A DNA stretch of 64,000 nt, taken from contig NC_010644.1 of the NCBI RefSeq assembly GCF_000020145.1, forward strand, positions 434,001-498,000, in the 5' to 3' direction. Positions 6,838 to 54,947 of the stretch are shown in pieces. The stretch is from Elusimicrobium minutum Pei191. GTDB lineage: Bacteria > Elusimicrobiota > Elusimicrobia > Elusimicrobiales > Elusimicrobiaceae. Below the pieces are notes generated by a model. The model made no database searches, had not been told where the DNA came from, and saw only the letters and a program-made list of their open reading frames with translations. A program made the translations under genes and the position numbers. The first letter of the stretch is position 1; every line of letters begins with the position of its first letter.

Positions 6838-9800
6838 ATGTATTTAAAGGCTATTGAAATCATCGGTTTTAAATCTTTTGCGGACAGACAAAGGCTTGAT
6901 TTTGAAAAGGGCATAACGTGCGTAGTAGGCCCCAACGGCTGCGGCAAATCAAACGTTGTGGATTCTGTGCGCTGGGCTATAGGTGAAATGAGCTGGAAAA
7001 GCCTGCGTTCCGCTTCCATGATTGATATTATCTTTAATGGAACCGCCAGAAGAAGCCCTTTAAACCTTGCCCAGGTTAACATGATTTTTGATAACGAAAG
7101 CCGCAAGCTTCCTTTAGATTTTAATGAGATAACCGTTTCCCGCAAAATTTTCCGTTCGGGGGAAAGTGAATATTTTTTAAATAAAGTGCAGTGCCGTTTG
7201 CGTGATATCAGGGATTTGTTTTTAGATACCGGTATCGGCGGCGAAGGCTACGCCATTATTGACCAGGGCGGGGTGGAGTCCGTTCTTTCCGCGAGCGCCG
7301 AACAAAGACGCGAAATGTTTGAGGAAGTGGCCGGCGTTTCAAAATATAAAGCCAAACGCGAGGAAGCCATAAGAAGGTTAGACCGTGTTGATCTTGATAT
7401 CGCCAGGCTTTCAGACACCGTTGTACTTCTTGACGAGCAGATTAAAAAACTTGACACCGAGGCAAAAAAAGCCAGGCTTTACCAAAAATACCGTGAAGAA
7501 CTTAAAGAAAGCGAAATAGCTATTTCACTTGAATCCATAAAAGAATTTGACGCTAATATAGTAAAAGATTCTGCCGAGCTTGAACCTTTAATAAAACAAA
7601 TTGAGGATTTAAACAACAATACTTCCGCCGTGGAAGGTTCAGTCGCCGCGCTTGACCTTAATTTAACGCACAAACAAAAACAGTTGGGCGAATTTAACGA
7701 AAAAATTTCAACCATAAAATACCAAATAGGTGTTTTGGAAGGCGCGGTAAAAAACTGCGAAAACCTGACAATTGAGTTAACCGCGCAGATAACCTATTCC
7801 GCCAGCGAAGGACAAAGAGGGCAAAACAGATTAAAAGAAATTACGCCCATAATAAGCGGTTTTAAAGAAAAGCTTAACGCCATTGAAGCGGAACTTCTTC
7901 CTTTGCAGAAAAAATATAACGACCAATTTGCTTTAGTTAAAGAAAATGAAGAGGCTTTAAAAAACGTTGACATTACCTCCCAGCAGCTTAATACAAATTT
8001 AATGAGAGCCGTACAGGCCGAAATGGAACTTTCAAACAAAATCGCTTTGGAAGAAAGCTCCGCAGCGCATGAGCAGCAAAATTTAATAACTTTAGAAAAA
8101 AGCGGCGCCGGCAATAACGAAAATTTAGAAAACCTTAAAAAAACGCTTGAAAATATTTCGGAAAAAATAACCGAAAAACATGCCTCCTTAGAAGGCGTTA
8201 AAAACCAGCTTAATGAAGCTGAGGAAAAAACGCGCTCTCTTTCCCGCTCGCGCATCGTTTTAAACGACCAGCTCAGCGCCAGCAAAGCGCAGGCGGCAGC
8301 TTTAAACGCCCGTTTGGAAATGATTCAAAGTCAGGGTAAAAACGACCCTTACTGGGTAGGAGCTAAATTAATTGAGGAAGCGGGCATCCCCGGGGTTAAA
8401 GGCACTCTTAGAAAAAATATTAAGTTCTCCTCTTCAGACAATTTAATTATTGAGGAAGCTTTCGGCAAATTTTTAGACTCCGTTATCTGCGATACTTTGC
8501 AAACGGCTGACTTAGCTCTTGAAAAACTAAAAGCGGCAAATAACGCCAGATGCAAATTTATTATTTTAAGCGAAGTTCCCGAAACTCCCGCCACAGGCGA
8601 TGTTAAAAATTTAATTAAATATCCTTCCGGGCTTGAAAGGTTAATAAACTGCTTATCTAACTCCAATGTAAGCGGCGGTACGGTAAAAGGCGGTTTTTGG
8701 ATTTCGGGTGGGGCGCAAAATATTAAAGTGCCCGAGGCCTATTGGGGGGAGGAAGAGTCCGTTAAAGACGAAATAAACTCCGTAAAAGAGAAGGCCGCTT
8801 CCATAACCAAGCAAATTGAGGAAAACGCCGCCGATATTAACAACGCGGAAAACAACCTTAAAACATTAAGAACAAGATTTCAGGAAGAAAGTATTTCTTT
8901 AAATTCCTTTAAAAATGACCTTGCTTCCAGAGAGCGAGAAATAAAAAACATTGAACAGTCATTGGAAGCTATTTCAAAAAATAAAGAATCTCTTCTTAAT
9001 AAAGTGTCCGAGCGCAAAAATAAATCCGAAGAGTTAAGAAAACAATTGTCCGAAATTAAAGCCTCCCAGGATAAGATTAAGGCGGAAATTGACGCAGCCA
9101 AATCGGCCAAAGCAAAAATTGTGCAAGACGGCGAAGGTTTAAGAACGGAAATAAGCCGCGTAAACGCTGATTTATACGAAGTAAAACTTAAGAAAAATAA
9201 TATTGAGGTTGACTTAAGAAGTACCGAGTTCGAATACAATAATATTATAGAAGCCGATAAAAAAAGGCAGGACCAGATTACCGCCGGTAATGAAAGGATT
9301 AAAGCCTTGTCGGAAGAAAAACTTACCGCACAGGCGCAGCTTTCCACCCAGCGTGAAGATTTAAAAACTTTAGAGCTTGACCAAACCAAACTTGCCTCGG
9401 AACTGCAGGCTCTTAAAAAAGATTTTGACGAAAAAAGCACTAAACTTAACGAATATAAAAAACGCCAGTCCGATATGCAGCTGCGCGCGCATGATTTGGA
9501 AAACGCTTTAACAAATTACCGCCGCCAGAGAACAACTATAGTTAACCATTTAATGGAGTCATGGAATATCACGCCTGAAGAAGCGGCCATGAAATTTACT
9601 AATAAAGAAATTGACCATGAACGCGTTAAGATGATGAGAAAGCGCATTGAGAACATGGGGGCGGTTAACATGACCGCGCCTGAAGAGTACGACGCGCTTA
9701 ACGAACGCGCCACCTTCCTTAAAAAGCAAATTGAGGATTTGGAAAATGCCAAGCGCGACCTTAAAACCGCAATTAACAAAATTAACGCCACAACAAAAGA

Positions 9801-10284
9801 GAATTTTAAATATACTTTTGACCATGTGCGCAACCATTTTAAAAATATATACCAAACTCTTTTTAGAGGCGGCGAGGCGGACCTTGTTCTTACCGACCCT
9901 GAAAATCTGCTTGAAACGGGTATAGAAATTTACGCGCAGCCGCCGGGTAAAAAACTGCTTAACCTCTCGGCCATGTCCGGCGGGGAAAAAACATTAACGG
10001 CATTATCGCTTCTTTTCGCGTTTTTTACGCATAACCCGGCGCCTTTCTGCGTGTTGGACGAAGCGGACGCCGCTTTGGATGAAGCTAACGTTGAGCGTTA
10101 CGTTAATTTGATTAAAGAGTTTTCAAATACCACGCAGTTTATTGTGGTTACGCACAATAAACGCACTATGGAAGCCGCGCAAATGCTTTACGGTATAACA
10201 ATGGAAGAAAGCGGCATTTCAAAAGTAATGTCGGTAAATATGAAAGAAGAAAGCGCTAAACTTGACGAGCTTGTTAACGCGTAA
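6838..10284 (+). CDS. smc: Chromosome segregation protein SMC
   Basis: This 1148-aa ATPase is the core of the bacterial condensin, which compacts and segregates the chromosome with ScpA and ScpB. Walker A is GPNGCGKS at 31-38. Long coiled coils (about 165-500 and 670-1000) flank a globular hinge (about 510-660) containing GVKGTLRKN. The C-terminal head has signature LSAMSGGEKTLTA and Walker B with D-loop (VLDEADAALDEANV). Length is normal for bacterial SMC. The coiled coil is rich in Lys/Glu/Ala and very low in Pro, as expected. Neither scpA nor scpB is in the window. A phosphoesterase gene follows after 29 bp, possibly on the same transcript. Confidence 0.97.
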   Translation: MYLKAIEIIGFKSFADRQRLDFEKGITCVVGPNGCGKSNVVDSVRWAIGEMSWKSLRSASMIDIIFNGTARRSPLNLAQVNMIFDNESRKLPLDFNEITVSRKIFRSGESEYFLNKVQCRLRDIRDLFLDTGIGGEGYAIIDQGGVESVLSASAEQRREMFEEVAGVSKYKAKREEAIRRLDRVDLDIARLSDTVVLLDEQIKKLDTEAKKARLYQKYREELKESEIAISLESIKEFDANIVKDSAELEPLIKQIEDLNNNTSAVEGSVAALDLNLTHKQKQLGEFNEKISTIKYQIGVLEGAVKNCENLTIELTAQITYSASEGQRGQNRLKEITPIISGFKEKLNAIEAELLPLQKKYNDQFALVKENEEALKNVDITSQQLNTNLMRAVQAEMELSNKIALEESSAAHEQQNLITLEKSGAGNNENLENLKKTLENISEKITEKHASLEGVKNQLNEAEEKTRSLSRSRIVLNDQLSASKAQAAALNARLEMIQSQGKNDPYWVGAKLIEEAGIPGVKGTLRKNIKFSSSDNLIIEEAFGKFLDSVICDTLQTADLALEKLKAANNARCKFIILSEVPETPATGDVKNLIKYPSGLERLINCLSNSNVSGGTVKGGFWISGGAQNIKVPEAYWGEEESVKDEINSVKEKAASITKQIEENAADINNAENNLKTLRTRFQEESISLNSFKNDLASREREIKNIEQSLEAISKNKESLLNKVSERKNKSEELRKQLSEIKASQDKIKAEIDAAKSAKAKIVQDGEGLRTEISRVNADLYEVKLKKNNIEVDLRSTEFEYNNIIEADKKRQDQITAGNERIKALSEEKLTAQAQLSTQREDLKTLELDQTKLASELQALKKDFDEKSTKLNEYKKRQSDMQLRAHDLENALTNYRRQRTTIVNHLMESWNITPEEAAMKFTNKEIDHERVKMMRKRIENMGAVNMTAPEEYDALNERATFLKKQIEDLENAKRDLKTAINKINATTKENFKYTFDHVRNHFKNIYQTLFRGGEADLVLTDPENLLETGIEIYAQPPGKKLLNLSAMSGGEKTLTALSLLFAFFTHNPAPFCVLDEADAALDEANVERYVNLIKEFSNTTQFIVVTHNKRTMEAAQMLYGITMEESGISKVMSVNMKEESAKLDELVNA

Positions 10285-48155: not shown

Positions 48156-48659
48156 ATGAAAAAAGGGTTTACGCTTATTGAACTTTTGGTAGTTGTTTTA
48201 ATTATAGGTATATTAGCGGCGATAGCATTGCCCCAGTATAACCTGGCGGTTGAAAAGTCCCGCGCGGCGGAAGCCTTTACCGTTTTAAAATCGCTTTCCC
48301 AAGCGGCTGAAATTTACAGGCTTGAAACAGGCTCTTACCCTACTGTTAATGATTGGGACAATTTATCCGTTGATATGCCTGCCGGCAACAGAGTGCACTA
48401 TACTTCCATCGGAGGGGACGCCTGGGTAGTGTCAAGCGGCAAATGGCGCTATTACTTGGGTTATGGTAACGGAATTTGGGCCAACAGGGGTGCTTCAGGC
48501 AGCGCGTATAATATACAATACAGATTTTCGGATAACAGATATTATTGCCAGGCCTATTTAGGCAAATCAGAGGTCTATAGAAAAGTTTGCCTAAATCTTT
48601 GCGCGGGCAATGCCTTTACGGCTAAAAGCGATAGGGAAGAATGTCTTATTAAAAACTAA
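48156..48659 (+). CDS. Type IV pilin-like protein
   Basis: This 167-aa protein starts [20 protein letters not shown] then ALPQYNLAVEKSRA. The C-terminal globular part (KSLSQAAEIYRLETGSYPTV, VDMPAGNRVHYTSIGG) has the usual TGSYP pilin segment and Cys residues near the end. It is a relative of the protein at 17379: both carry a MPAG segment, but their C-terminal cores differ. It may be cotranscribed with zupT, though it has no obvious functional link. Confidence 0.9.
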   Translation: MKKGFTLIELLVVVLIIGILAAIALPQYNLAVEKSRAAEAFTVLKSLSQAAEIYRLETGSYPTVNDWDNLSVDMPAGNRVHYTSIGGDAWVVSSGKWRYYLGYGNGIWANRGASGSAYNIQYRFSDNRYYCQAYLGKSEVYRKVCLNLCAGNAFTAKSDREECLIKN

Positions 48660-49465: not shown

Positions 49466-49494
49466 TTGACGAAATGCCTGCTATGATGTAAAAT
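49466..49494 (+). promoter_or_regulatory. Putative promoter of the DUF4402/usher locus
   Basis: TTGACG (49466-49471) and TAAAAT (49489-49494) are separated by 17 bp, 76 bp upstream of the first subunit ATG. A second TATGAT overlaps the spacer but has no matching -35. Confidence 0.55.
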
Positions 49495-49569
49495 TAAACA
49501 TATTTTGTTATGTAATAAGAATCCAACGATATAGGATTTATGAGTAAAAAAAGGAAAGGAGGATATGTT

Positions 49570-50046
49570 ATGAAAAAAATATTAGTAATGTTATTTGCTT
49601 TTTTGATTGTGAGCAGCGCAGCTTTTGCCGTTACCGGTACGGGTTCTGCCCAGGCTGAGATAATAGCGCCTTTGTCAGTAACCGGCGTTGTGACGCTTGA
49701 CTTCGGAAAGATAGTACAACCCACTGGAGCTGAAGTCGTTACGCTTACAACTGCAGGTGTAATAAGCGGTGCGACGGCAGGGCATGTCAGCGGTACTCAA
49801 ACTGTAGGGGAATTTGAAATTATCGGCGCGCCCAATCAAGATGTAACATTTTCTGTTGCGGACACTACGCTTACCGGCGTCGGGCCCGCAATGGTTCTTA
49901 AAAATTATACATTTGATAAAGCCTTAACCCACCCGCTTGATGCAACAGGCAACAGCTCTGTAAAAATAGGTGGAGAGCTTGAAGTAGCTGCAAATCAGGA
50001 TGCAGGGATGTACATCGGTAACTACACTGTTACAGTAAACTATTAA
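49570..50046 (+). CDS. DUF4402-like fibre subunit
   Basis: This 158-aa secreted protein has signal peptide MKKILVMLFAFLIVSSAAFA. The mature part (140 aa) is all-beta: AEIIAPLSVTGVVTLDFGKI near the start, GEFEIIGAPNQDVTFSV, and AGMYIGNYTVTVNY at the end. The LDFGKI and final Y.G.YTV.VNY pattern fits DUF4402, a family often beside chaperone-usher genes. It is probably the major subunit because it is first, short and precedes a hairpin that may lower expression of downstream genes. An in-frame ATG at 49540 exists, but GGAGG just before 49570 and the clean signal peptide decide for 49570. Confidence 0.8.
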   Translation: MKKILVMLFAFLIVSSAAFAVTGTGSAQAEIIAPLSVTGVVTLDFGKIVQPTGAEVVTLTTAGVISGATAGHVSGTQTVGEFEIIGAPNQDVTFSVADTTLTGVGPAMVLKNYTFDKALTHPLDATGNSSVKIGGELEVAANQDAGMYIGNYTVTVNY

Positions 50047-50054
50047 TAAGTATC

Positions 50055-50091
50055 GCATAAGCTCCTGCCTATATATGGCAGGGGCTTATGC
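50055..50091 (+). promoter_or_regulatory. Intercistronic hairpin after the first fibre subunit
   Basis: A 15-bp stem with one G-T pair (arms 50055-50069 and 50077-50091, core CCTGCC/GGCAGG) lacks a T-run. It looks more like an mRNA-stabilising or partial-termination element than a full terminator, so the first gene could be made in excess over the rest. Confidence 0.6.
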
Positions 50092-50150
50092 TTAGTAGCG
50101 GTTTTAAGCGTTAAAAGTTGTACTTTTGTTTTTAAAAAATTGTAGGAATT

Positions 50151-51131
50151 ATGAAACTATCTCAAGTCTTATCTCTAATAATCATTGTATTTTCTCCAGG
50201 GGTTTTATATGCCGGCAACATGTCTTCCGGTATAATTAACTTTGGCACTATTACATTGTTAACCTCTGCGGGCGGTACGGTTACACTAAACGCATCAACC
50301 GGTGCGGCTACTCCAAGCGCCAATGTGAGCGTAACTGGTGCGGCGCGCGGCTATGCCAGATACCAAGTTGCCGGCGATGAGTGTAAGTGCTCTCTATCAT
50401 GGAGCGGCCTTCCCTCCACCTTAAATCTTACCGGCCCCGGTACATTACAACTTACCAATTTTACTTTCAATGCAGGATCTGATTATGTCGTGGACGGCAG
50501 CTGCGGCGGCGCAGCTCAATATACCACTAACCCTGTTATAGGGTTTTGGTATAATCCTCCTTACGGCACTTATTACATAGGTGCTACAGCCAATATAACA
50601 ACTTCTACCAAGCCTGGTACATACACAGGCTCTTTTACTATAAACTCCAGTGGTACAAAAAGATTCGAAGCAGCTATAGGCAGCAACAGATGCACTATGT
50701 GGCCCGGCAGTGAGCCTGCGGAAAACTTAAACACTACCGTTAATGTTACTGCTACTGTAGAGTGGCCTTTAAGTGTTGAGGAAACCGCTCTGCTGGACTT
50801 CGGAAAGATAATAAGACCGACGGCGAACTGTACGGCTGTGGTTGCAACAAACGGCTCTTCAGGCGGTACGTGTTCTACTCTTACCGGCACTACGGCGGCG
50901 GGCCGCGTCAAAGTTAAAGGCATAGGCGGCAGCCCCATCTCTTATTCAATAGCGGCCTCCACCCTTGGCTCAATGACGCTGGATACTTTTACTACATCCC
51001 CTTCAGGCCTCACTACGATTGGCGCCAACGGAGAGGTGGAGGTTTCTGTAGGGGCGACATTGCATGTGCCTGCAGATAAAGCGCCGGGCGTTTATACGGG
51101 CACCTATACAATAGAGGTAAATTACCAATGA
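50151..51131 (+). CDS. Two-domain DUF4402-like protein, possible tip or adaptor
   Basis: This 326-aa protein has a signal peptide (LSLIIIVFSPGVLYAG). The C-terminal half (about 205-326) mirrors the 158-aa subunit: ALLDFGKIIRP and a final GVYTGTYTIEVNY. The N-terminal half (about 20-190) starts SGIINFGTITLL and has a related GTYTGSFTI strand, so two copies of the fold are likely. Six Cys are present, among them a CKC pair. By analogy a two-domain, Cys-containing, lower-copy subunit is often the tip adhesin or base adaptor; this is inference. Its stop overlaps the chaperone start. Confidence 0.75.
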   Translation: MKLSQVLSLIIIVFSPGVLYAGNMSSGIINFGTITLLTSAGGTVTLNASTGAATPSANVSVTGAARGYARYQVAGDECKCSLSWSGLPSTLNLTGPGTLQLTNFTFNAGSDYVVDGSCGGAAQYTTNPVIGFWYNPPYGTYYIGATANITTSTKPGTYTGSFTINSSGTKRFEAAIGSNRCTMWPGSEPAENLNTTVNVTATVEWPLSVEETALLDFGKIIRPTANCTAVVATNGSSGGTCSTLTGTTAAGRVKVKGIGGSPISYSIAASTLGSMTLDTFTTSPSGLTTIGANGEVEVSVGATLHVPADKAPGVYTGTYTIEVNYQ

Positions 51132-51934
51132 TTATGAAAAGGATACTCTTATCAACAATTTTTTTATTTGCCGTAAACTGTGCTGTAGCAAGCATTTCTA
51201 TACATCCCTATTCTCTTGAGTTTGAAATGTCATCCAAAAAACGTATGCACAGCGTTCGTATTATAAACAATTCGCAGGAAGAAAAGACATACCGCGTCAG
51301 TTTTGTAAACTACGTGCAGAGGGAGGACGGCTCCTACCGCGAACCGATGCCGCAAGAGGTCTTAAACACGGCGGACGCGTACTTGTATTTTTCCCCGCGC
51401 CAATTTACTCTTAAACCGGGCAAAATGCAGACTGTAAATGTTATCCGCCGCCCCACGGCGGAACTGCCTGACGGGGAATATGTTTCCCATCTAAAAGTGG
51501 CTGAGGTGGATATCCCGGTATCGCGCGAGCAGGCCGCTGAAAAACAGCAAAAAAATGAGCCGGGAGCTTTGCAGTTTCAGCTAAAGGCCCTCTATGCGGT
51601 AACCATACCTGTTACTTTGCAAAAAGGTAATTTGGAAAGTAAATTTGAAATAAGCAATGCACAGTTGTCCGTGCGAGATGCAGTGACCGTAATGGAGGTT
51701 GTTTTACAGGCTACGGGCACAAAATCCGCGCGCGGGGATATTTCCATACGGGACAGTAAGAAAAAAGTTATAGGCCAGTTAAATAATGTGCGTATTTTCC
51801 CTTATAATAAAGAGCGCCGCTTGGCAATACCCCTGTCCAAAACAGAGCAGGAACTGGTGGGTGAAACCCTCACCGTAATTTTGAAGAATAAAGAAACGGG
51901 GAAAAATGTTTCCGAAAAGAAAATATCTATCTAA
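51128..51934 (+). CDS. PapD-like periplasmic pilus chaperone
   Basis: This 268-aa protein has signal peptide IMKRILLSTIFLFAVNCAVA. The N-terminal immunoglobulin-like domain contains SISIHPYSLEFEMSSKKR, VRIINNSQEEKTYRVSF and YLYFSPRQFTLKPGKMQTV; the second domain follows from about 150. Layout and the PRQFTLKPG segment match pilus assembly chaperones, which hold subunits by donor-strand complementation. It overlaps the upstream gene by 4 bp and the usher gene by 29 bp, so all are one operon. Confidence 0.85.
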   Translation: MIMKRILLSTIFLFAVNCAVASISIHPYSLEFEMSSKKRMHSVRIINNSQEEKTYRVSFVNYVQREDGSYREPMPQEVLNTADAYLYFSPRQFTLKPGKMQTVNVIRRPTAELPDGEYVSHLKVAEVDIPVSREQAAEKQQKNEPGALQFQLKALYAVTIPVTLQKGNLESKFEISNAQLSVRDAVTVMEVVLQATGTKSARGDISIRDSKKKVIGQLNNVRIFPYNKERRLAIPLSKTEQELVGETLTVILKNKETGKNVSEKKISI

Positions 51935-54900
51935 AATTGCAGCCTTTGGAAGCAGCATTTTGTTAATGCTAATTTTGCCCTGTTGTTACCTTTTTGCCGA
52001 AAGCTACAACGACCCTCTTATTGTGACGCCTGTTTTGCAGAGTTACCCGCAGGAAGATTTTATTTTCATATATGAGAACCAGGGCGATAAATACATTCCG
52101 TTTTACCCTTTTGCCGCTGTGGTTGGTTTTTCCGTTACTAAAAATGACGGCGTGCGCATTGAAGGCTTTGCGGGCGAACAGCGCAATAATTTTTTCATTG
52201 ATTTCCAACATAAAAAAGCTTTTTTTGGCGGGCGGGAAATCCCGTTTTCCCCAAATGACATAGTGCGAATAGAAGATCAAATATCCTTTAAAACAGGCTT
52301 TTTGGAAGATCTCTTTAATATTAAAACAGACCTCGATGAGATGGCCCTTCTTCTTAACATAAACGCGGATTATAAATTGCCTAAAACCGTTAAAGAAGAG
52401 GCGCTGCGCAAAAGAGCAAATACATCTTTATACCAAGGCAATAAGGATTACTGGTCCGACTACGAGTTTGATGAACGCTCCTGGGCCTTGCCTGTTGTGG
52501 ATTTAAGCGTTACCGCAGGCCTTTTTGCCGCAGATGATACCGATACTAAGTATTCCCAGAATTACGGTTTAAATATAGCCGCCCTTACCGCCGGGCTAGA
52601 TAGCAATTTATACCTGTTTGGCGATAGTCATAGCGATTTTGAAACCAAGGCGCGCTTTACCACCGGCAGGGTATTTTTGAGGGATGAATACAAATTCCCA
52701 AATCTTACTGTTTTTGAGGCGGGGGATATAACAGGCACAGGTTCCTCTTTTTTTGAATCCAATACCTCAGGGCGCGGCGTAACTTTAAGTTCTTTCAAAA
52801 ACTATGTTATTTCTGCGGATAAGACAATCACCATTACCGGGATTTTGCAGGACGGCTGGGATGTTGAACTGCACTTAAATTCACAGCTTTTAGGCTTCCG
52901 CCAACCTTCCATAGGCGGCCGCTATGTGTTTGATAATGTTCCGGTAAGTTACGGCCTTAATGTTTTTAAATTGGTTTTCTACGGCCCTTTCGGTGAGATA
53001 CGTACAGAAGAAAGGCGCTATTATTCAGGCACCTCTCCTGTTGCCAAAGGGGAAGTGGGCTATATTTTAAATGCGTACCAGCCGCAACGTTATCTTATTG
53101 AGGTTAATGAACCTTATGTTTCCAAAAGCGATATTCCTGTTGTTGATTTTATAGGTTTTTACGGCTTATCGGAGCACCTAACGTTAATGGGCGGGTTTAC
53201 AAACTCTCAAGATGCGCTGGATAACTTAAAAGAGCGCCGCTTTGCTATGGCTGGCGCGCAGCTGTTGTTTAGCGGGGCATCGTTGCAGTATAACCTTTCC
53301 CAAGATTTGCAAAGCGGTGAAATAGGCCACCGCGCCGAGGTGCAAGGCAATATTTATATAGGGGATATTTTCTCCCGCTATGAATATTACGGCGATATAC
53401 AATCCCCAATATCTTTTGTGGGCAATAAATACTTAAAAGAACTTTTTGAAACGCGCTTAAGCGGTATTATTACCCCGCTTGACAATACGCCGTACTTTAT
53501 AAATTTTACACATACGCTAGATCATCAAAACTATTCCGAAGACGCTTTAAATATAAGGCTTTCACGCCAACTCTTCAGATATTATAATTTGTCTCTTGAG
53601 AATTTTTGGCAATCCGCCTCTTATAATAAAAATACGGCGACAAATGATGTTTCTCTTTTGGCACAGGCTAACTTTGGCCCTTTCGGTATTTATACGGGGG
53701 CTTTCTACAGGACTTATCCGTCAACATTTCTCTCCGAATTAAATGCAATGGTTGATTACCGCTGGGACCGCAGAACTTATCTTGCGCTGCAATACCGCCG
53801 CGGGCAAAGATATTATGAAAAAATGAATATGTACGATGTTTTTTTCCTTACGGGCAGCAGGATGTTTCCTTTTGGCGGCATAAGCGTTGCATTGTCAACA
53901 TCTTCATATAATAACTTAACTGCATCTCTTACTTATAATATAAGCTTCGGCCCGAAGGCGGACAGTGGAATATTTACCGATACAAAATCAAAATTAAGCG
54001 AATACGGGTCCGTTTTTGTCCGCGTGCAGGAAGAAGACGGAACCCCTCTGGAAAATGTTATAGTATCCGTAAGCGGGGCAGAAAAGGGCTTCCAAACCGA
54101 TAAAAAGGGGGAGGCGGTAATTACCTATATCCCGCCTTATGAAAAAGTTGTTTTAGATTTAGACCTCTCGGAAGTTGAGGATCCTTCTTTATCTCTGCTG
54201 GAGAGTAATTACAAATATATACTGCGCCCCGGTACAGTGCGTAATATTATGCTGCCGATGGCCCGCAAGGGTACGGTTGAGGGAAAGTTAATACATAATC
54301 TTGCGGATCAATTCCTCAGCGGTTATGAAATTAAAATTTACAACGAAGCAGGCGCTGAAGCCTCTTTCACTTTCACCGATTTATTCGGTTTCTTTGTATT
54401 GGATAACCTTCCGTTTGGGAACTACTCCCTTACTATAGCGAAGGAAGGGCGGGAAGTCACCAGAGTGGAGGACATAAAATTGGATACCTTTTCAATATAT
54501 CTTGAGCCTCACATTAACGCGCCGGAGCAGCCTTACATTAATTTGCCGGATACCATAGTGGCACAGGCGCAGGAGGGATTCTCGGAGCCGCTTGCCCGCA
54601 AGCTTGACGCTATACAGTTTAACAGCAGGGATATGGAATACCAATTTAATTCCTGCGAACTGACGGAAAAACAAAAAAATATTATAAGGGAAAAATGCGC
54701 CGCCTTAAAAGATTTCCCTTATACAAAAATAATAGTCACGGGCAATACGGATAATATAGGCTCTTATGGGGTAAATAAAAGCATATCGCTAAGGCGTGCT
54801 AATGCTGCGGCAAAAATTTTAATTGAAGAAGGCTTAAACCCGGATACCATAGAAATAATGGGTGTGGCGTATGATAACCCTGTAACCGGCAATTTGACAA

Positions 54901-54947
54901 GAGAAGGCCGGGCAATGAACAGAAGGACGGATATACTGATTTTGTAA
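51906..54947 (+). CDS. Usher-like outer-membrane protein with C-terminal OmpA domain
   Basis: This 1013-aa protein has a signal peptide (FGSSILLMLILPCCYLFA). About residues 20-170 form an N-terminal periplasmic domain; 190-690 a large beta-barrel region with usher-like features (FEAGDITGTGSSFFES, RGVTLSSF, ITGILQDGWDVELHLNSQLL, where ushers read GxLPDGWxVELYxNGxL). Two carboxypeptidase-regulatory/SdrD-like domains follow at about 700-770 and 787-860. From about 907 to the end is an OmpA-type peptidoglycan-binding domain (TGNTDNIGSYGVNKSISLRR, RAMNRRTDI). Typical FimD/PapC ushers end with small beta-sandwich domains and lack OmpA. The start ATG lies within the chaperone gene, with GGGGA before it. 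Confidence 0.82.
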   Translation: MFPKRKYLSKIAAFGSSILLMLILPCCYLFAESYNDPLIVTPVLQSYPQEDFIFIYENQGDKYIPFYPFAAVVGFSVTKNDGVRIEGFAGEQRNNFFIDFQHKKAFFGGREIPFSPNDIVRIEDQISFKTGFLEDLFNIKTDLDEMALLLNINADYKLPKTVKEEALRKRANTSLYQGNKDYWSDYEFDERSWALPVVDLSVTAGLFAADDTDTKYSQNYGLNIAALTAGLDSNLYLFGDSHSDFETKARFTTGRVFLRDEYKFPNLTVFEAGDITGTGSSFFESNTSGRGVTLSSFKNYVISADKTITITGILQDGWDVELHLNSQLLGFRQPSIGGRYVFDNVPVSYGLNVFKLVFYGPFGEIRTEERRYYSGTSPVAKGEVGYILNAYQPQRYLIEVNEPYVSKSDIPVVDFIGFYGLSEHLTLMGGFTNSQDALDNLKERRFAMAGAQLLFSGASLQYNLSQDLQSGEIGHRAEVQGNIYIGDIFSRYEYYGDIQSPISFVGNKYLKELFETRLSGIITPLDNTPYFINFTHTLDHQNYSEDALNIRLSRQLFRYYNLSLENFWQSASYNKNTATNDVSLLAQANFGPFGIYTGAFYRTYPSTFLSELNAMVDYRWDRRTYLALQYRRGQRYYEKMNMYDVFFLTGSRMFPFGGISVALSTSSYNNLTASLTYNISFGPKADSGIFTDTKSKLSEYGSVFVRVQEEDGTPLENVIVSVSGAEKGFQTDKKGEAVITYIPPYEKVVLDLDLSEVEDPSLSLLESNYKYILRPGTVRNIMLPMARKGTVEGKLIHNLADQFLSGYEIKIYNEAGAEASFTFTDLFGFFVLDNLPFGNYSLTIAKEGREVTRVEDIKLDTFSIYLEPHINAPEQPYINLPDTIVAQAQEGFSEPLARKLDAIQFNSRDMEYQFNSCELTEKQKNIIREKCAALKDFPYTKIIVTGNTDNIGSYGVNKSISLRRANAAAKILIEEGLNPDTIEIMGVAYDNPVTGNLTREGRAMNRRTDILIL

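Follow-up and report, generated by a model that had tools for sequence, protein, structure and literature searches.

Does a compact four-gene locus of the beetle-gut isolate Elusimicrobium minutum Pei191 (Elusimicrobiota) encode a chaperone-usher system, and is its usher tied to the cell wall? The locus lies in a stretch of 64,000 nucleotides (NC_010644.1, positions 434,001 to 498,000; here called the window) of a genome of 1,643,562 bases in a single contig. At 49570-54947 of the window, on the forward strand, it comprises genes for a DUF4402 subunit, a two-domain DUF4402 protein, a PapD-like chaperone and an usher with an OmpA domain (Table 1). These four same-strand genes had been named in an original prediction made from the sequence, and all open reading frames (ORFs) are present. 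Operon content, the identities of usher and chaperone, the fold resemblance of the subunits and the presence of the OmpA domain were established from sequences, profiles or predicted structures. As a whole, the locus shows homology to chaperone-usher systems, and the usher model, the profiles and the fold matches of the two-domain protein agree with the resemblance that had been proposed; most likely, it also works like them. We take it as a probable minimal operon for a chaperone-usher pilus, belonging to a divergent lineage closest to the archaic (sigma) branch, with an OmpA domain that would bind the wall.

Table 1. Positions of the predicted features in the window
Feature	Position	Strand	Basis
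Promoter-like site TTGACG-17-TAAAAT, upstream of operon	49466..49494	+	Consensus scan alone
Single-domain DUF4402 subunit, 158 aa, signal peptide	49570..50046	+	PF14352, E=2.4e-27
Two-domain DUF4402 protein, 326 aa	50151..51131	+	PF14352, E=1.4e-37, two stretches
PapD-like periplasmic chaperone, 268 aa	51128..51934	+	hhalign of family profile (31 relatives)
Usher, 1013 aa	51906..54947	+	AlphaFold2, Foldseek, hhalign
OmpA-type peptidoglycan-binding domain, usher C-terminus, aa 912-1006	54639..54923	+	PF00691, E=1.7e-16; phmmer vs PDB OmpA-like domains

Usher fold and profile comparisons

The AlphaFold2 model of the usher, based on an alignment of 52 sequences, reached a predicted local distance difference test (pLDDT) value of 80.8. 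Along the chain it places an N-terminal domain (~38-154), a barrel (193-683), two C-terminal domains (CTD1, ~689-772; CTD2, 777-866), a linker (~867-911) and the OmpA domain (912-1006). The barrel has 24 strands, counted from the DSSP listing of the model, and a plug of six strands (307-374) is inserted between strands 6 and 7; strand number and plug position are those of FimD and PapC. The original prediction had made its case depend on a plugged 24-strand barrel, and the model shows both. In a Foldseek search against the PDB, the best 18 matches of the model were all FimD or PapC, with E-values down to 2.4e-30, while porins followed from ~1e-6. The two C-terminal domains are also common to these classical ushers, to which the structure alignment gave ~10-13% identity. 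At the positions expected for CTD1 and CTD2, Pfam located the two carboxypeptidase-regulatory-like domains that had been claimed: CarboxypepD_reg matched at 790-860 (E=1.7e-12, two stretches) and CarbopepD_reg_2, more weakly and under its cut-off, at 707-743. A CarboxypepD_reg-like domain in the usher tail is shared with the alternative (alpha) pathway of CFA/I and ECP (EcpA-E).

For comparison by hhalign, family profiles were required, since the single-sequence comparison with FimD (19.8%) was uninformative. The usher family matched archaic ushers at 98.9% over 570 columns and classical ushers at 97.4%; the match to EcpC alone was weak (50.7%). The controls FhuA and LptD gave 1.6% and 1.8%, values from single sequences and hence weaker than family comparisons, one archaic usher alone reaching 88.1%. 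Also, the placement outside the classical FimD/PapC type held, as none of PF00577, PapC_N, PapC_C, TcfC and CooC_C matched the 1013-aa protein in Pfam and NCBIfam. In the genome scan, PF00577 scored 10.9 bits against it (E=0.135; cut-off 27.1), whereas three archaic ushers were found at 110-130 bits (E=1.9e-31 or better). Thus the usher is without the PF00577, PapC_N and PapC_C matches of classical ushers and instead carries a C-terminal OmpA domain, which Pfam found in none of the three archaic ushers scanned; TcfC and CooC_C are present in EcpC but in none of the window usher family.

To find relatives, 84,980 species genomes were scanned with an alignment as query, which gave 496 usher relatives, and the best 80 of the 496 were fetched; a genome-contig search with the single window protein as query gave no matches. 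In nearly all relatives examined, DUF4402 and chaperone genes adjoin the usher, so this gene grouping is not a matter of chance. The number of DUF4402 subunits differs between relatives. Missing matches to every Pfam and NCBIfam usher model would suit a non-usher outer-membrane barrel, of the porin or TonB receptor type, that stands beside DUF4402 surface proteins by chance. However, the structure and profile comparisons favour ushers specifically, FhuA and LptD being rejected, and the linkage to a chaperone recurs in nearly all relatives. We regard such a barrel as highly improbable, the plugged model and the Foldseek matches having already largely refuted it. By profile and structure prediction, the 1013-aa protein is an usher.

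Chaperone and DUF4402 subunits

Searches of the chaperone and the subunit against PDB sequences with phmmer gave no matches, and PDB profile searches gave weak or off-target matches only. By profile comparison, the chaperone is PapD-like: the profile of 31 relatives matched archaic chaperones at 98.6% and classical K-12 PapD-family chaperones at 95.6% in hhalign, and PapD_N was matched by the chaperone of one relative at 2.6e-4, with another at 1.1e-4, just under the cut-off. For chaperone and usher of the window family, the best profile match is therefore the archaic pathway, represented by the Acinetobacter Csu system (CsuA/B, CsuC, CsuD, CsuE). Pro90 is kept in 31/31 relatives and, in our reading of the joint alignment, would correspond to the one proline that is the only invariant residue of the chaperone superfamily (PMC4654587). 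An arginine that holds the subunit carboxylate marks archaic and alternative chaperones (PMC4654587). In the joint alignment, the column homologous to the archaic arginine holds Arg in 5/5 archaic chaperones, whereas the window family has His in 29/31 and Tyr in 2/31; this column was equated with CsuC Arg89 by conservation and by the EcpB residue count after the signal peptide, independently of any structure. An arginine at column 119 (18/31) had at first been taken as the archaic Arg89 and was dropped, as the joint alignment puts the homologous column at 121.

The subunits match PF14352 and not PF05229 (SCPU), the family of the archaic subunits, in Pfam. By its chaperone and usher profiles, the family thus appears nearest to the archaic branch, yet it fails three tested marks of it, namely SCPU, PF00577 and the chaperone arginine. 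For the two-domain DUF4402 protein, the AlphaFold2 model (25 sequences) had a pLDDT of 83.5. In Foldseek, its best matches were the archaic tip adhesin CsuE, ranking first in fold, the CfaE-CfaB and CfaB-CfaB donor-strand fusions, the former from the alternative pathway, and the PapD-PapG complex, and 8/9 of the best matches were chaperone-usher adhesins or pilins. Their E-values are significant and their TM-scores low (0.20-0.34); low global TM-scores can arise where domain angles differ. Both domains of the model are linked by a strand of 14 residues (191-204; pLDDT 92-95) with alternating hydrophobics, which is consistent with a linker that completes domain 1, i.e., complementation in cis. 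Judged from this two-domain model, the DUF4402 subunits appear to share the incomplete immunoglobulin fold of pilins.

A C-terminal strand Y.G.YTV.VNY had been predicted for both subunits; it is exact in the first (YIGNYTVTVNY), while the second deviates slightly (YTGTYTIEVNYQ). The pattern is kept across the subunits of relatives, and archaic subunits end in a similar strand, G.Y...TVTV.Y. The single-domain subunit is conserved in relatives and is the probable major fibre subunit; the two-domain protein is the probable tip adhesin. From these components we infer the following course of assembly and export. A signal peptide would take the DUF4402 subunits into the periplasm, where the PapD-like chaperone would grip the C-terminal strand of a subunit and lend a strand of its own to the incomplete fold. 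The usher would then join subunits by donor-strand exchange through its plugged 24-strand barrel; the two-domain protein would be exported first, as tip adhesin, and the single-domain subunit would follow and build the fibre.

Alternatively, the secreted product might be one tip adhesin by itself or a short coat without filaments, comparable to capsule-like polymers. One or few DUF4402 subunits per locus, in numbers that vary between relatives, would fit such a product, and the fibre is so far a prediction from genes and models. Against it, the usual arrangement of chaperone-usher pili pairs a small single-domain subunit with a two-domain protein resembling an adhesin, as seen here, and the C-terminal strand pattern is conserved, so that we consider a non-filamentous product quite unlikely and prefer a pilus.

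Wall-binding domains in the usher family

The OmpA domain that had been predicted to end the usher was found there. It spans 95 aa and retains Asp949 and Arg964, whose distance of 15 residues is the spacing of the conserved ligand-site Asp and Arg; their roles we take to be those of the corresponding residues of A. baumannii OmpA. The OmpA-like domains of OprF, Pal, YiaD and A. baumannii Omp38 have the same conserved Asp and Arg, but there the domain is fused to a small barrel or a lipoprotein, while in the window it is fused to an usher. At the C-terminal end of the usher, in the periplasm, it would bind peptidoglycan and thereby fix the platform, and the load of the fibre would pass to the wall through it.

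Among the relatives, the usher of another member of the Elusimicrobiota (L021), truncated by the contig end, also ends in an OmpA domain, and in the tree it is the sister of the window usher (support 100). In Candidatus Endomicrobium neocapritermitis (L039), the usher stops after CTD2 and an OmpA-family gene starts 8 bp later; this separate gene (9523-10110, equal to 872-1459 on the reverse strand of L008) has a lipoprotein-like signal. OmpA-family genes in L035 and L046 are at least 1.5 kb away from the usher, and we did not treat them as linked. Over the Pfam cut-off, SPOR domains were found in three ushers (L059, L072, L109). With L072 and L109 as seeds, an iterated profile recovered L059 and the closely related L063 and added L060, L112, L118 and L120, where the assignment is less sure; when scanned singly, L060, L112 and L118 stayed under the Pfam SPOR cut-off or gave no score. 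The SPOR carriers among the usher relatives belong to the Desulfobacteraceae and Alphaproteobacteria, and the domain is C-terminal, at the same end as OmpA. In the tree, OmpA carriers and SPOR carriers stand apart, and therefore two origins of the fusions are likely; SPOR itself could be one old gain followed by losses. Titles and abstracts, with subscription papers outside the coverage, yielded no description of an usher fused to a peptidoglycan-binding domain. As further observations on usher tails, Elusimicrobiaceae ushers (L009-L012, L056, L062) have Lys-rich tails of ~40-170 aa, and several ushers of gut Alphaproteobacteria (L022-L032) have acidic ones.

It is conceivable that the OmpA domain is a neutral appendage, or has a role in stability or localisation, and that wall binding has no part in assembly or load. 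This would fit the many relatives without such a domain: in 61 of the 99 usher frames examined, the core is followed by fewer than 60 residues, and the frames with OmpA and with SPOR number 2 and 8, respectively. However, other ushers carry an unrelated peptidoglycan binder, SPOR, at this same end, the gene for an OmpA lipoprotein-like protein directly follows the usher in L039, and the conserved ligand-site Asp and Arg are retained. A neutral role is therefore considered unlikely, and the OmpA domain is probably explained as tying the usher to the cell wall, an interpretation strengthened by the usher and OmpA gene pair of L039 and by the SPOR fusions elsewhere.

Several points weigh against a wall-bound pilus operon as a whole. 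The OmpA part of the usher model is of low confidence, because the alignment is mostly without this domain, and the identity of the domain comes from Pfam and phmmer. In most of the family no wall-binding domain is recognised, and anchoring is therefore not required for the system. Arg89, the carboxylate anchor of archaic and alternative chaperones, is His121 here. Also, the sequence link between DUF4402 and SCPU is weak; a 29-column C-terminal match reached 89.9% with signal peptides and 14-26% without them, and homology of the two families is not claimed. Finally, the models are of single chains, while donor-strand exchange would take place between chains, and the fibre would be the product of a system known here from genes and models.

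Gene neighbourhood, distribution and significance

Within the operon, the genes of the two-domain protein and the chaperone overlap by 4 bases and those of chaperone and usher by 29 bases. For the first subunit, the ORF opens at 49540 and the start was placed at the ATG at 49570, with AGGAGG just 5′ of it and a clean signal peptide. The promoter-like site is a consensus match only and showed no enrichment compared with shuffles. Upstream of the operon lie genes of a ZIP-type transporter and a type IV pilin-like protein, and downstream a gene of an alpha/beta hydrolase (Pfam). The type IV pilin-like gene (48156-48659), 5′ of the operon, encodes an N-terminal methylation motif. A scan of the window genome revealed no second DUF4402 gene outside the locus and no usher over the PF00577 cut-off.

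A minimal, peptidoglycan-anchored usher system in this phylum had been expected to be new. The system is not special to Elusimicrobiota, as the best 80 relatives are mostly Alphaproteobacteria, with some Desulfobacteraceae, Gammaproteobacteria and Elusimicrobiota. The usher query matched in 8/199 sampled genomes of Elusimicrobiota, one of them (G004) weakly and in the tail only, in 18/289 of the class of L072 and in 1/198 of the phylum of L059, each count including the centre genome, which is itself positive. A quick maximum-likelihood tree, with long branches and 20 open forks, puts the window usher and L021 within a fully supported set of 25 rows, mostly Alphaproteobacteria from gut and rumen samples. 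The ushers of the window, L021, L037 and L039 group with gut Alphaproteobacteria and not with those of other Elusimicrobiota (L056, L062, L069). This position suggests transfer between phyla, with usher genes apparently moving in animal guts.

The locus adds a variant to the chaperone-usher pathway, and its branch is not labelled so in standard databases. Among seven relatives on plasmids, the annotation reads carboxypeptidase-regulatory-like or SdrD B-like protein in five and hypothetical in one, and the seventh is without annotation; such systems are easily missed, because the few annotated relatives carry names of this kind. DUF4402, which no paper found in the open literature names (subscription papers were outside the coverage), thereby gains a likely function, and the family extends chaperone-usher pili to hundreds of genomes, Elusimicrobiota included. 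To our knowledge, in the pathways characterised so far nothing but the outer membrane holds the usher. In this family, two peptidoglycan binders that are unrelated to each other have repeatedly been joined to it, so that the anchoring of a pilus platform to the wall can be tested directly. Tentatively, and with slightly less than even confidence, we propose that the DUF4402 systems stand as a major branch by themselves within the chaperone-usher superfamily, with subunits of their own and His in place of Arg, in which several lineages have independently fixed the usher to the wall by OmpA fusion, a neighbouring OmpA lipoprotein or SPOR fusion. If this is true, the assembly platform would be a wall-fixed machine.
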